From the NCBI GenBank assembly GCA_023266845.1, contig JAHFPH010000011.1, forward strand, positions 1-45,126: 45,126 bases of DNA, read 5' to 3'. Position 1 is the first letter of the stretch, and every line of letters begins with the position of its first letter. Under the pieces are notes generated by a model. That model was not told the origin of the DNA. It saw only the letters and a program-made list of their open reading frames with translations, and made no database searches. Source of the DNA: Rhodospirillaceae bacterium (lineage in GTDB: Bacteria; Pseudomonadota; Alphaproteobacteria; JAEULC01). Below are positions 33,212 through 43,268 of this stretch, piece by piece. The translations under genes were made by a program, and so were the position numbers.

Positions 33212-33415
33212 ATGGCTACAGGTACCGTGAAATGGTTCAACGCGCAGCGCGGTTATGGCTTCATTCAGCCGAGCGATGGCGGTAAGGACGTGTTCGTCCA
33301 CGCCACGGCCGTGCAGAACGCCGGTCTGGGCTCGCTGGTCGAAGGCCAGAAGCTCAGCTACGACGTGAGCACGGAGCGCGGGAAGCCCGCCGCTACCAAC
33401 CTGAAGTCGGCTTAA
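33212..33415 (+). CDS. Cold-shock domain protein (CspA family)
   Basis: 67 residues: MATGTVKWFNAQRGYGFIQP, then KDVFVHATAVQNAGL. The RNP1 (KWFNAQRGYGFI) and RNP2 (DVFVHA) nucleic-acid-binding motifs are intact in the single OB fold. Csp proteins bind single-stranded RNA and melt secondary structure at low temperature, although many alphaproteobacterial copies act in stationary phase or constitutively. ATG 33212 follows GAGGAG by 10 bases. The long structured upstream region suggests post-transcriptional control. Confidence 0.96.
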   Translation: MATGTVKWFNAQRGYGFIQPSDGGKDVFVHATAVQNAGLGSLVEGQKLSYDVSTERGKPAATNLKSA

Positions 33416-33430
33416 CGCCGCCTTGGCCGA

Positions 33431-33475
33431 CGGCGCCGGTCCGGGACTTAAAGGTCCCCTGGATCGGCGCCGGTC
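33431..33475. repeat. 11-base direct repeats flanking a hairpin downstream of csp
   Basis: CGGCGCCGGTC occurs at 33431-33441 and 33465-33475. Between them GGGAC (33443-33447) pairs with GTCCC (33454-33458) around a 6-base loop. CGGCGCCG is itself palindromic, so the two copies can also pair with each other. Sited 16 bases after the csp stop, this may serve as a transcript end, although no T-run follows. Confidence 0.4.
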
Positions 33476-33548
33476 GCCACCCCAGGCCCCCCTGTTCCGC
33501 GCCGTTTTCCGGCGCCTCCCGCCGCCCTGCCCCGGCGGCCTGGATTGG

Positions 33549-38229: not shown

Positions 38230-39242
38230 TGGTCGCCGCCGTTTCCTCGCCGGTTCCGAAATCGGCCGACGCGGTGGTGATCGAGGCCACGGACCTCAGG
38301 CGCCATTACACGGTCAGGCTCGGCCTGTTGCGCGGCACGGCCACCGTGCGCGCGGTCGACGGCATCAGTTTCACCCTGCGCTCGGGAAAAACCCTGGCGG
38401 TGGTGGGCGAATCCGGCAGCGGCAAGTCGACCCTCGCGCGCCTGGTCACCCTGATCGAGCCACCCACGGGCGGCACGCTAAGGCTGATGGGCCAGGACCC
38501 GATCACGGCGTCGCCCGTCGAGCGCCGCGAGCTGCGCAAGGCCGTGCAGATGGTGTTCCAGGACCCGTACGGCTCGCTCAACCCGCGCCGCAAGGTGGGC
38601 GCGATATTGGAAGAGCCGCTGATCATCAACGCCAAAAAAATGACGGCGGCGGAGCGGCGCGATCGCGGGCTGGCGATGCTCGCTGCCGTGGGCCTGCGCC
38701 CCGAGCATTACGTGCGCTATCCGCACATGTTCTCGGGCGGGCAGCGTCAGCGCATCGCCATCGCGCGCGCGCTGATGTTGAATCCGCGCCTGGTGATCGC
38801 GGACGAGCCGGTCTCGGCGCTGGACATCTCGATCCAGGCGCAGGTGCTGAACCTGATGATGGATCTGCAGGAGCGGTTCAATCTCGCCTACCTTTTCATC
38901 TCGCACGACCTTAGCGTCGTGCAGCATATCGCCGACGACGTGATGGTGATGTACCTGGGCAAGCCGGTGGAGCACGGCGGCAAGGAAGCGGTGTTCACGC
39001 GCCCGCGCCACCCCTACACCATGGCGCTGCTGGCCGCGACGCCGCGCGTCGATCCCAGCCAACGCATCAACCCGCAGATTGTAAAGGGCGAACTGCCGTC
39101 GCCGCTCAGTCCGCCCAAGGGCTGCGCCTTCCATACGCGCTGTCCTTTCGCCAAAGAACGCTGCAAGGCCGAAGTGCCTGTCATGCGCCCGGTCGACGGG
39201 CGGCTCGCCGCCTGCCACTTCGCCGAGGAGATCGCGCAATAA
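38229..39242 (+). CDS. dppF: Dipeptide ABC transporter ATP-binding protein DppF
   Basis: 337 residues from ATG 38229, sharing one base with the dppD stop (TGATG). Walker [17 protein letters not shown]-loop MVFQDPYGSLNPRRKVG, signature FSGGQRQRIAIARALM, Walker B LVIADEPVSALDIS and H-loop ISHDLSVV are complete. The C-terminal CAFHTRCPFAKERC region repeats the cysteine pattern of DppD. It ends the transporter operon; the patatin-like gene begins 18 bases later and may be read through. Confidence 0.95.
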   Translation: MVAAVSSPVPKSADAVVIEATDLRRHYTVRLGLLRGTATVRAVDGISFTLRSGKTLAVVGESGSGKSTLARLVTLIEPPTGGTLRLMGQDPITASPVERRELRKAVQMVFQDPYGSLNPRRKVGAILEEPLIINAKKMTAAERRDRGLAMLAAVGLRPEHYVRYPHMFSGGQRQRIAIARALMLNPRLVIADEPVSALDISIQAQVLNLMMDLQERFNLAYLFISHDLSVVQHIADDVMVMYLGKPVEHGGKEAVFTRPRHPYTMALLAATPRVDPSQRINPQIVKGELPSPLSPPKGCAFHTRCPFAKERCKAEVPVMRPVDGRLAACHFAEEIAQ

Positions 39243-39260
39243 CCCGGTGCCGGAGCCGCC

Positions 39261-40307
39261 ATGACCGAACAAATGACCGCACCACACAAGATCGCGCTGG
39301 CGCTGCAGGGCGGCGGCTCGCACGGGGCGTTCACCTGGGGCGTGCTGGACCGGCTGCTGGAAGAACCCAACCTGACGATCGGCAGCGTCACCGGCGCCAG
39401 CGCCGGGGCGATGAACGCGGTGGTGCTGGCGCATGGGTTGCTCGACGGCGGCCACGAGGGAGCGCGGCGCGCGCTGCGCGAATTCTGGGAATCGGTCGGC
39501 CGCGTTCCCGGCCTGGCGTCGTTTTTCGGCCCCCTGCAATCCGGCGCGCCGGGGCAATGGCATCTCGACAATTCGCCGATCTACATCCTGTTCGATTTCA
39601 TCAGCCGCGTCTGGTCGCCCTACGAGCTCAATCCGCTGAACCTGCATCCCCTGCGCGACATCGTGACCGGGCTGGTCGATTTCGACGCCCTGCGGCGGTC
39701 CACCGCGCCGCGCGTGACGGTATGCGCGACCAACGTGCGCACCGGACGCCGCCGCGTGTTCGGCAACGCCGAGCTTACGGCCGACGCGGTACTGGCCTCG
39801 GCCTGCCTGCCGTATCTGTTCCCCGCCACCGAGATCGACGGCGAGCCGTACTGGGACGGCGGCTATACCGGCAACCCGGCGATCGCGCCGCTGCTGCGCG
39901 GCGACAGCGAGGTGAGCGACCTGATCATCGTCGCCATCAATCCGCTGGTGCGCGATGAAACGCCGAAAACCGCGCGCGACATCATCAATCGCGTGACCGA
40001 GATCAGCTTCAACTCGACCTTCCTGCTGGAGCTGGCGGCGATCGCCTTCGTCGGCAAGCTGTGCGCCGATCACGGCATCCAGGACAAACGCGCGCGGCAA
40101 ATGTTCTTCCACGGCATCGGCGCGGAAGCGGAGCTGAGCGCCATGGGCGCGTCGAGCAAGCTCAACAACCATCCCGCCTTCCTGAGCCATCTCTTCGGCA
40201 TCGGGCGCGAGGCGGCCGGGGAGTGGCTTGCCGCCAACCGCGCGGCAATCGGCCGACGGTCGACCATCGATCTTACGCAATTGCTGCCGAGCGATATGCT
40301 CGGTTAA
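39261..40307 (+). CDS. Patatin-like phospholipase
   Basis: 348 residues. A Ser-Asp dyad lipid acyl hydrolase: LALQGGGSHGAFTWGVLDRL gives the oxyanion loop, GASAG with S47 is the nucleophile elbow, and DGG (D199 in YWDGGYTGNP) supplies the aspartate. There is no signal peptide or transmembrane helix, so it is probably cytosolic. In Proteobacteria related proteins act in membrane lipid turnover or polyhydroxyalkanoate granules. Its 18-base spacing from dppF is suggestive but not proof of a shared role. Confidence 0.88.
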   Translation: MTEQMTAPHKIALALQGGGSHGAFTWGVLDRLLEEPNLTIGSVTGASAGAMNAVVLAHGLLDGGHEGARRALREFWESVGRVPGLASFFGPLQSGAPGQWHLDNSPIYILFDFISRVWSPYELNPLNLHPLRDIVTGLVDFDALRRSTAPRVTVCATNVRTGRRRVFGNAELTADAVLASACLPYLFPATEIDGEPYWDGGYTGNPAIAPLLRGDSEVSDLIIVAINPLVRDETPKTARDIINRVTEISFNSTFLLELAAIAFVGKLCADHGIQDKRARQMFFHGIGAEAELSAMGASSKLNNHPAFLSHLFGIGREAAGEWLAANRAAIGRRSTIDLTQLLPSDMLG

Positions 40308-40341
40308 ACCAACCCCGCGCAAATCCTGGGTTTCCCGCTGG

Positions 40342-40370
40342 TTGCGGAGCGCGCGCGAAACCGGCATAAC
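40342..40370 (+). promoter_or_regulatory. Candidate promoter of leuA
   Basis: TTGCGG (40342-40347), a 17-base spacer, then CATAAC (40365-40370), four of six to the -10 consensus. It would start a transcript near 40377, giving a leader of about 138 bases that contains both leader hairpins. The -35 match is modest. Confidence 0.3.
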
Positions 40371-40410
40371 ATCGGCATAAGAATCAGGCATTTGCGCCCC
40401 CCGGGAAGCC

Positions 40411-40488
40411 CTTCGAGCGAGGGCGGGGCCTGCCGCCCTTGCTACGAAGCGACACCCCAGGGGGCCCACGCGCCTTGAAAACGGCGCG
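40411..40488 (+). promoter_or_regulatory. Structured leader of leuA
   Basis: A long hairpin spans 40411-40449. CTTCG then an 11-base arm (40411-40426) pairs with 40433-40449 through one G-T wobble and one bulged A, closing a GGCCTG loop. A second hairpin has CGCGCC (40469-40474) pairing with GGCGCG (40483-40488) around TTGAAAAC. GGGGC at 40425-40429 can instead pair with upstream GCCCC (40396-40400), so two folds compete. No ATG-start leader peptide or leucine-codon run is present, so classical leu attenuation is not supported. Confidence 0.5.
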
Positions 40489-40514
40489 GCGAGAAAGCGT
40501 CCAAGAGGCACGCG

Positions 40515-42065
40515 ATGAGCAACAGCGACAAGGACCGCGTCTATATCTTCGACACCACGCTGCGCGACGGCGAGCAATCGCCCGGCGCTTCGATGAACCT
40601 CGAGGAAAAGCTGCGCGTGGCGCTGCTGCTGGAAGAGATGGGCGTCGACATCATCGAGGCCGGATTCCCGATCGCCTCGCAGGGCGATTTCGAGGCGGTG
40701 CGCGCGGTCGCGGGCAAGGTCAGGAATTCCATCGTCGCCGGCCTGGCGCGCGCCGGCAAGAAGGATATCGACCGGGCCTGGGAGGCGCTGAAAGGCGCCA
40801 AGCGGCCGCGCATCCACACCTTCCTGTCCACCAGTCCGCTGCACATGAAATACAAATTGCAGATGGAGCCGCAAGCGGTGCACCAGGCGGTGATCGACAG
40901 CGTCACCCACGCGCGCAACCTGTGCGACGACGTGGAATGGAGCCCCGAGGACGGATCGCGCACCGAGCACGATTTCCTGTGCCGCACCGTGGAAAGCGCG
41001 ATCAAGGCGGGTGCCAGCACCATCAACATCCCCGACACGGTGGGATACGCCGTGCCCGAGGAATTCGCCCAGCTGATCCGCATGCTGTTCGACCGCGTGC
41101 CGAACATCGGCAAGGCGATCGTGTCGGTGCATTGCCACAACGATTTGGGCCTGGCGGTGGCGAATTCGCTGGCCGCGGTGAACGCCGGCGCGCGACAGGT
41201 CGAATGCACGATCAACGGCCTGGGCGAACGCGCGGGCAATGCGGCGCTGGAGGAAATCGTGATGGCGCTGCGCACGCGCCACGACCGGATGCCCTATACC
41301 ACCGGCATCAAGACCGAGCACATCACCAAGGCCTCGCACCTGATTTCGACCATCACCGGATTTCCGGTGCAGCCGAACAAGGCGATCGTCGGCGCCAACG
41401 CCTTCGCGCACGAATCCGGCATCCACCAGGACGGCATGCTGAAGCACGCCGGCACCTACGAGATCATGACGCCGGAATCGGTCGGGCTTAACCGCTCGAC
41501 GCTCGTCATGGGCAAGCATTCGGGCCGGCACGCGTTCCGGGCCAAGCTCAAGGAGCTTGGCTTCGAGCTGGGCGACAACGCCCTGGAAGACGCCTTCAAG
41601 CGCTTCAAGGACCTGGCCGACAAGAAAAAGAACGTCTACGACGACGACCTGGTGGCGCTGGTCGAGGACGAGGTGGTGCGCGACCACGCGCGCCTGAAAT
41701 TCGTGTCGCTGCAGGTGATGTGCGGCTCGCGCGGGCCGCAGATGGCGGACCTGGAGCTGGACATCGACGGCACGGTCCACAACGTGCAGGCGCGCGGCGA
41801 CGGGCCGGTGGACGCCACCTTCAACGCGATCAAGAAGCTGGTGCCGCACACGGCCCAGCTGCAGCTGTTCCAGGTGCACGCCGTGACCGAGGGCACCGAC
41901 GCCCAAGCCAAGGTGACCGTGCGCCTGGCCGAGGACGGTAAGAGCGTGAACGGCCAGGGCTCGGATACCGACACGCTGGTGGCCTCGGCCCGGGCCTATA
42001 TCCACGCCCTCAATAAACTGTTGACGAAACGGGAGAAAACCGCCCCGGCCGCGCTCACGGCCTAA
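40515..42065 (+). CDS. leuA: 2-isopropylmalate synthase
   Basis: The first committed step of leucine synthesis, condensing acetyl-CoA with 2-oxoisovalerate. 516 residues from ATG 40515 behind AGAGG. The TIM-barrel catalytic start [18 protein letters not shown] and the metal-binding HCHNDLG are intact, as is the [17 protein letters not shown] segment. HKD-type residues lie in [13 protein letters not shown]. The C-terminal 120 residues (from about [18 protein letters not shown]) form the regulatory domain that senses leucine. An intrinsic terminator follows. Confidence 0.97.
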
Positions 42066-42129
42066 TCTCCCTGCGATGCCCTGCGGCTTGTAACCAAGCC
42101 CCAGGGGCGGTACCAATGCACTCTCCTGC

Positions 42130-42165
42130 AACCCCCCTTGGCCGGAAGCGCCCTGGGGGGTTTTT
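42130..42165 (+). terminator. Rho-independent terminator of leuA
   Basis: AACCCCCC (42130-42137) pairs with GGGGGGTT (42155-42162) over an inner GG/CC pair and the stem is followed by TTTTT. It ends 60 bases before mreB. A weak promoter-like TTGTAA/TACCAA pair (42088-42116) lies just upstream of it. If real, mreB would be transcribed through this terminator. Confidence 0.8.
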
Positions 42166-42167
42166 AG

Positions 42168-43268
<1,101 letters not shown>

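Follow-up and report, generated by a model that had tools for sequence, protein, structure and literature searches.

A strong hairpin in the leuA leader of a Rhodospirillaceae bacterium, possibly a lineage-specific passive 5' stem-loop

Introduction

The leuA gene of a Rhodospirillaceae bacterium is preceded by a leader with a long GC-rich hairpin, which raises the question of whether this structure controls leucine biosynthesis, serves the transcript in a passive manner or has no function at all. The window, i.e. the whole stretch of 45,126 nucleotides that was analysed, is contig C170 of a 3.46-Mb genome in 200 contigs. The order of the organism is represented in the collection by four genomes, all of one genus, namely its own and those of the congeners G001, G002 and G003. 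An earlier note on this DNA had described the leader as a strong hairpin with a competing fold and no leader peptide, and had considered a metabolite- or protein-sensing role conceivable.

Gene setting and structure of the leader

The product of leuA comprises HMGL-like, HCS_D2 and allosteric LeuA_dimer domains (Pfam). The gene is followed by an mreB-like gene and preceded by a patatin-like gene, the stop codon of which lies 88 nt before the 5' foot of the leader stem. The patatin-like gene of the window separates leuA from an ABC transporter ATPase gene; as judged by eye, the end of apparently the same ATPase is located immediately before leuA in G001 and G002. On the 3' side of leuA, at 42130-42165, a hairpin followed by TTTTT resembles a canonical intrinsic terminator. 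An open frame 1525 codons long runs on the minus strand at 38478-43055, opposite several genes, leuA among them, and is most likely a product of the high GC content.

The 16-bp hairpin that had been placed at 40411-40449 is recovered with pair probabilities of at least 0.99 and forms the inner part of a larger imperfect stem-loop (Table 1). It contains a bulge at A40444, one G-U pair (40419-40440) and a loop at 40427-40432; the connecting pairs at 40408 and 40409 are less certain, with probabilities of 0.67 and 0.54. The second hairpin described before the ribosome site is present as well (40469-40488), and a small hairpin further on (40497-40513) ties up two G of the likely ribosome-binding site.

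Table 1. Features in and around the leuA leader and in related loci; positions are those of the window unless another locus is named.
Feature	Position	Strand	Basis
Patatin-like gene, upstream of leuA	39261-40307	+	ORF; Pfam PF01734
Promoter-like block AAGAATCAGGCATTTGCGC	40379-40397	+	MAFFT alignment of four leaders
Whole imperfect stem-loop, about 70 nt	40396-40465	+	MFE fold
Outer stem	40396-40401/40460-40465 and 40403-40405/40456-40458	+	Pair probability at least 0.955
Inner hairpin, 16 pairs	40411-40426/40433-40449	+	Pair probability at least 0.99
Second hairpin, 6 pairs, 8-nt loop	40469-40474/40483-40488	+	MFE fold
Small hairpin over ribosome site	40497-40502/40507-40513	+	MFE fold
Likely ribosome-binding site AAGAGG	40503-40508	+	Read from sequence
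leuA, 2-isopropylmalate synthase	40515-42065	+	ORF; Pfam PF00682, PF08502, PF22617
CtrA-like box	G001:C340:3932-3950, G002:C249:1235-1253, G003:C279:36429-36447 (minus strand)		Pattern search
R1 leader examples	L022 1397-1455, L041 1055-1113, L091 1312-1375, and 51 further named loci	+	R1

The competing fold proposed for the leader exists only in passing. When leader prefixes were folded in steps of 6 nt, pairing with the upstream GCCC was the best fold in only two of them, with ends at 40430 and 40436, and was superseded by 40442; on the full leader it reaches -51.8 compared with -72.3 kcal/mol, i.e. about 20 kcal/mol worse, so that the leader holds no pair of mutually exclusive folds close in energy. 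No T-run directly follows the stem on the plus strand, either in the sequence or in a terminator scan of 40250-40600, and an intrinsic terminator was rejected on these grounds. The sole terminator-like site of that region is small and lies on the minus strand (40399-40386), and none was found on the plus strand between the stem and leuA.

Strength of the hairpin within its own genome

The claim that the hairpin is much stronger than chance folds holds against shuffled sequence but not against the genome itself. The segment 40377-40514 has a minimum free energy (MFE) of -72.6 kcal/mol compared with a dinucleotide-shuffle mean of -54.91 (sd 4.05; z -4.37), and none of 200 shuffles reaches its value. 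Against a background of 80-nt windows taken every 5 nt on the plus strand of 202,101 bases, the stem is the 10th peak by MFE, the 22nd after GC correction and the 8th among intergenic peaks, the last by a rough gene call that surely has some false and missed genes. Besides the 45-kb window, this background comprises eight stretches from elsewhere in the genome, which were picked from contigs with weak matches, so it is not a random draw. Within the 45-kb window alone, the leader peak ranks 2nd by MFE and 6th after GC correction. Though strong against shuffles, the leader hairpin thus does not stand out within its own genome.

Among gaps of at least 80 nt in the rough gene call, 6 of 12 convergent, 10 of 36 codirectional (leader stem included) and 3 of 21 divergent ones contain a strong intergenic fold (Z <= -2.5). 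As such folds are commonest in convergent and rarest in divergent gaps, the distribution suggests that many of them are terminators. Some carry a T-run, for instance the one behind leuA, unlike the leader stem. Two long intergenic GC-rich stems, at 33401-33480 of the window and at 4451-4530 of L112, are comparable to the leader stem, and neither has an obvious T-run on either side.

Conservation of the leader

The earlier note had recognised no known riboswitch class, in agreement with Rfam 15, which gives no match at the gathering cut-off in the whole window; no known RNA family was recognised. A permissive search of 40300-40560 returned five matches, all far below the cut-offs, from four miRNA families and Methylosinus-1.

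The LeuA pieces of the three congeners are 88-91% identical. BLAST aligns none of the three congener leaders to the window leader; what it matches in the congeners is the beginning of leuA, besides short stretches on other contigs. In the MAFFT-aligned leaders, 8 of the 31 window base pairs are formed in G003, 7 in G001 and 6 in G002, while 14, 12 and 11, respectively, are gapped. The RNAalifold consensus of the four leaders is weak (-5.95 kcal/mol) and its pair set differs from the window stem; in 7 of its 20 pairs one or more sequences carry a double change, and several of these pairs fall at the CtrA-like box described below. A search for covarying pairs in relatives, which had been proposed as a check, yielded none that support the stem among only three strongly diverged congeners. 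The aligned congener leaders thus do not appear to form the stem, and its conservation is unsupported at the low power of this comparison. All three are nevertheless slightly more stable than the majority of their shuffled versions, G003 most of all (z -2.36, -1.45 and -1.87, with 4, 11 and 9 of 200 shuffles as low). Measured from the shared block to the start codon, the window leader is 138 nt long and those of the congeners 102-113 nt, a difference of 25-36 nt, and no conserved core is seen in the congeners beyond this short promoter-like block. Because congeners with the same block do not form the stem, any role that it has would be dispensable in the genus.

Across 385 genomes of the class, only two others match the leader at E <= 0.001, over 26 and 28 nt. 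The genome of the organism itself contains no second copy of the stem, only partial matches of 14-28 nt: the one other match below E 0.001 (on C96) falls within an ORF of 163 aa, and seven weaker matches of 14-28 nt have E values of 0.26-3.1. A dispersed repeat or REP-like element was considered and found unsupported, given that the sole other match below E 0.001 sits inside an ORF.

A leucine-peptide leader in related leuA loci

A LeuA search found 588 relatives, of which the best 80 named loci were kept; one of these (L019) was judged to be congener G003, and the other 79 form the comparison set. Many of the 79 carry, before leuA, a short ORF with leucine codons at its end (..LRLRCP, ..LLLSRP); its stop codon falls within a GCCCCTGARCG / CGTTCAGGGG stem, in the 5' arm. 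The covariance model R1 describes this 10-bp stem with the peptide end in its 5' arm and was built from 36 aligned loci; five of its ten pairs are invariant by selection, as these loci had been picked by the pattern CCCCT + AGGGG. In the alignment, 92.5% of 360 cells pair compared with 90.2% in shuffles, none of 500 of which attains this share; the covariation score of 0.178 exceeds the 0.137 of the shuffles, of which 1 in 500 is as high. Three pairs show a double change, which is no more than in shuffles (167 of 500).

R1 matches the plus strand before leuA in 54 of the 79 related loci (E <= 8.4e-5); since 36 of these 54 built the model, the matches outside the model-building set amount to 18 of 43 loci. 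L095 (E 0.0057) and L057 (E 0.028) match weakly, L064 (0.28) and L071 (0.3) barely. A survey of 190 genomes of the class with stricter filters found 50 with an R1 match at E <= 0.001, one in each, so that at this setting roughly one genome in four carries the element, not the majority of the class; the four best matches of the survey all lie 135-169 nt before the conserved LeuA motif. A T-run directly after the R1 stem is uncommon (mean of 1.6 T in 8 nt; at least 4 T in 3 of 43), and a hairpin further downstream, accompanied by a T-rich stretch ahead of leuA or at its start, was seen in only 9 of 43. The R1 leader has no Rfam match in the 20 loci scanned, 14 of which are carriers. None of the paper titles listed names an alphaproteobacterial leuA leader peptide, which may be covered by a comparative study on attenuators of proteobacteria that Vitreschak and colleagues published in 2004.

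The genus of the window appears to lack this element, consistent with the earlier statement that classical leucine attenuation is absent. R1 has no match at E <= 1 in the window or at the congener loci. With filters off, its maximum over 39500-40600 is 5.5 bits, on the minus strand inside the patatin-like gene, and within the leader its best scores are 2.2 (minus strand) and -0.7 bits (plus strand). A scan of the organism's own genome, in which 150 of 4200 first-look candidates were scored, gave no match at E <= 1, and the congener genomes offer nothing better than E 0.118. Likewise, over the 330 nt scanned, neither the window (L099) nor any of the three congeners has a short ORF with at least three Leu among its final 14 residues, by a script that considered only the first start following any stop.

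On a LeuA tree of 83 rows, 27 are labelled as lacking R1 (the four of this genus, L064, L071 and 21 others), with L057 and L095 scored as carriers. The label requires 16 changes, of which starred branches force 7; the mean over shuffled labels is 23.0, and 1 of 500 shuffles is as low. R1 absence is scattered yet clustered, and the genus of the window is one clade without the element. The pattern would fit loss, on a tree that is rooted at its midpoint, has many unresolved deep branches and is unsettled in its bootstrap values.

Promoter-like block and CtrA-like box

The promoter-like block just upstream of the hairpin shares 16 of 19 bases with TAGAATCAGGTACTTGCGC of G003, and G001 and G002 are partly alike. 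It may represent the -10 and transcript start region of leuA, a role that is inferred, since a sigma-70 consensus scan of 40250-40600 returned no promoter. Its presence in G003 argues weakly against a start of leuA transcription past 40449, which had been named as an observation that would speak against the leader.

All three congeners have a TTAR-N7-TTAACCAT motif just before leuA, a CtrA-like box. These boxes are three of only six such sites in about 15.7 Mb; the reversed control pattern has no site in about 15.7 Mb, and the window's own genome has no site of the box. All four genomes encode a close relative of CtrA, 68-72% identical to the CtrA query sequence (partial in G002).

Interpretation of the hairpin

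At a probability of about one half, the leader hairpin is a lineage-specific, passive 5'-UTR stem-loop of leuA, situated close behind the likely transcript start. This fits best because the genus has no leader peptide, the allosteric domain is kept, and a stable but apparently non-conserved stem stands behind a probable promoter. Transcription of leuA would begin from the block at 40379-40397, and the stem would mainly shield the 5' end of the mRNA from decay or insulate leuA from upstream sequence rather than act as a ligand switch. Leucine control would then lie in feedback inhibition of LeuA, as the presence of the LeuA_dimer domain suggests, together with unnamed transcription factors. The stability of the fold (z -4.37), its dominance in the ensemble and the position of the shared block beside its 5' foot speak for such a passive stem, as does the lack of a plus-strand T-run behind it, unlike other hairpins such as the one behind leuA.

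The stem may also have no function, given how common comparably strong folds are in this genome; it would then be a chance or inserted GC-rich palindrome that is tolerated between genes, an account that is unlikely but carries appreciable weight. It draws on the comparable intergenic hairpins elsewhere, on window pairs that are not conserved in the congeners and on the leader length (138 compared with 102-113 nt), with the short dyad of the CtrA-like box at about the same place in the congeners. It is harder to reconcile with a stability that 0 of 200 shuffles attain and with the second lowest MFE peak of the 45-kb window, nor is there any sign of a repeat family: the genome has a single further match below E 0.001, and it lies inside an ORF. 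Somewhat less probable is that the stem serves the patatin-like gene as a terminator or insulator that stops or slows read-through and shields the upstream mRNA at its 3' end, with leuA starting separately. The stem does start 88 nt past the patatin-like stop codon, and strong folds are distributed over convergent and divergent gaps as terminators would be, but no T-run follows it, whereas the hairpin after leuA ends in TTTTT. Moreover, the leuA promoter would be squeezed into 49 nt, and the shared block precedes the stem.

A riboswitch or protein-binding RNA that senses leucine, ketoisocaproate, isopropylmalate or a regulator is very unlikely. The strong nested structure and its place before a biosynthetic gene without the peptide leader of its relatives are compatible with sensing, but no positive evidence emerged for what the earlier note had thought conceivable: there is no second copy, and the folds are far apart in energy. 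An Rfam match is missing, the window pairs are mostly unformed in the congeners, where the consensus fold is weak, and the class contributes just the 26-28-nt matches in two others of 385 genomes. The competing fold is about 20 kcal/mol worse, and no terminator-like site lies between the stem and leuA on the plus strand. Even more improbable is the specific case of a newly acquired leader that senses a pathway metabolite or regulator via the 70-nt stem, possibly using the predicted transient cotranscriptional fold. Hardly credible, finally, is a decayed remnant of the alphaproteobacterial leu attenuator stem, which would share the gene and a GC-rich stem with a C-run opposite a G-run. This candidate was rejected on the R1 scores, which without filters peak at 5.5 bits over 39500-40600 and, in the leader itself, at 2.2 bits (minus strand) and -0.7 bits (plus strand); a Leu-rich short ORF is also missing.

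Taken alone, the leader stem looks ordinary, with no detectable conservation, and serves as a reminder that a strong GC-rich fold in front of a biosynthetic gene should not be read as a switch by default. More useful than the hairpin itself are the comparative findings on leuA. With the Leu-peptide leader present in many lineages and absent elsewhere, and the CtrA-like box in the congeners, they suggest that the control of leuA turns over in the Alphaproteobacteria.

Comparison with known systems

Like the riboswitches and leaders of Rfam, the window has a structured leader before a biosynthetic gene, but none of the families reaches its gathering score. The R1 element shares with it the gene, the position and a GC-rich stem, and differs in its leucine leader peptide and its CCCCTGARCG / CGTTCAGGGG stem, which the window does not have. 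In Caulobacter, ilv attenuation relies on a rho-independent terminator together with a leader peptide that contains Ile and Val codons (PMC4117421). Both leaders belong to a branched-chain amino-acid gene of an alphaproteobacterium, but neither a leader peptide (Ile and Val codons judged by reading the sequence) nor a terminator was found in the window leader. Stabilising 5' stem-loops are known from recA of Acinetobacter and vacA of Helicobacter (PMC7509114), and reference titles in PMC3997798 concern those of ompA and papA. By description, the window leader resembles them in having a predicted stable stem near its probable 5' end and before the ribosome site.
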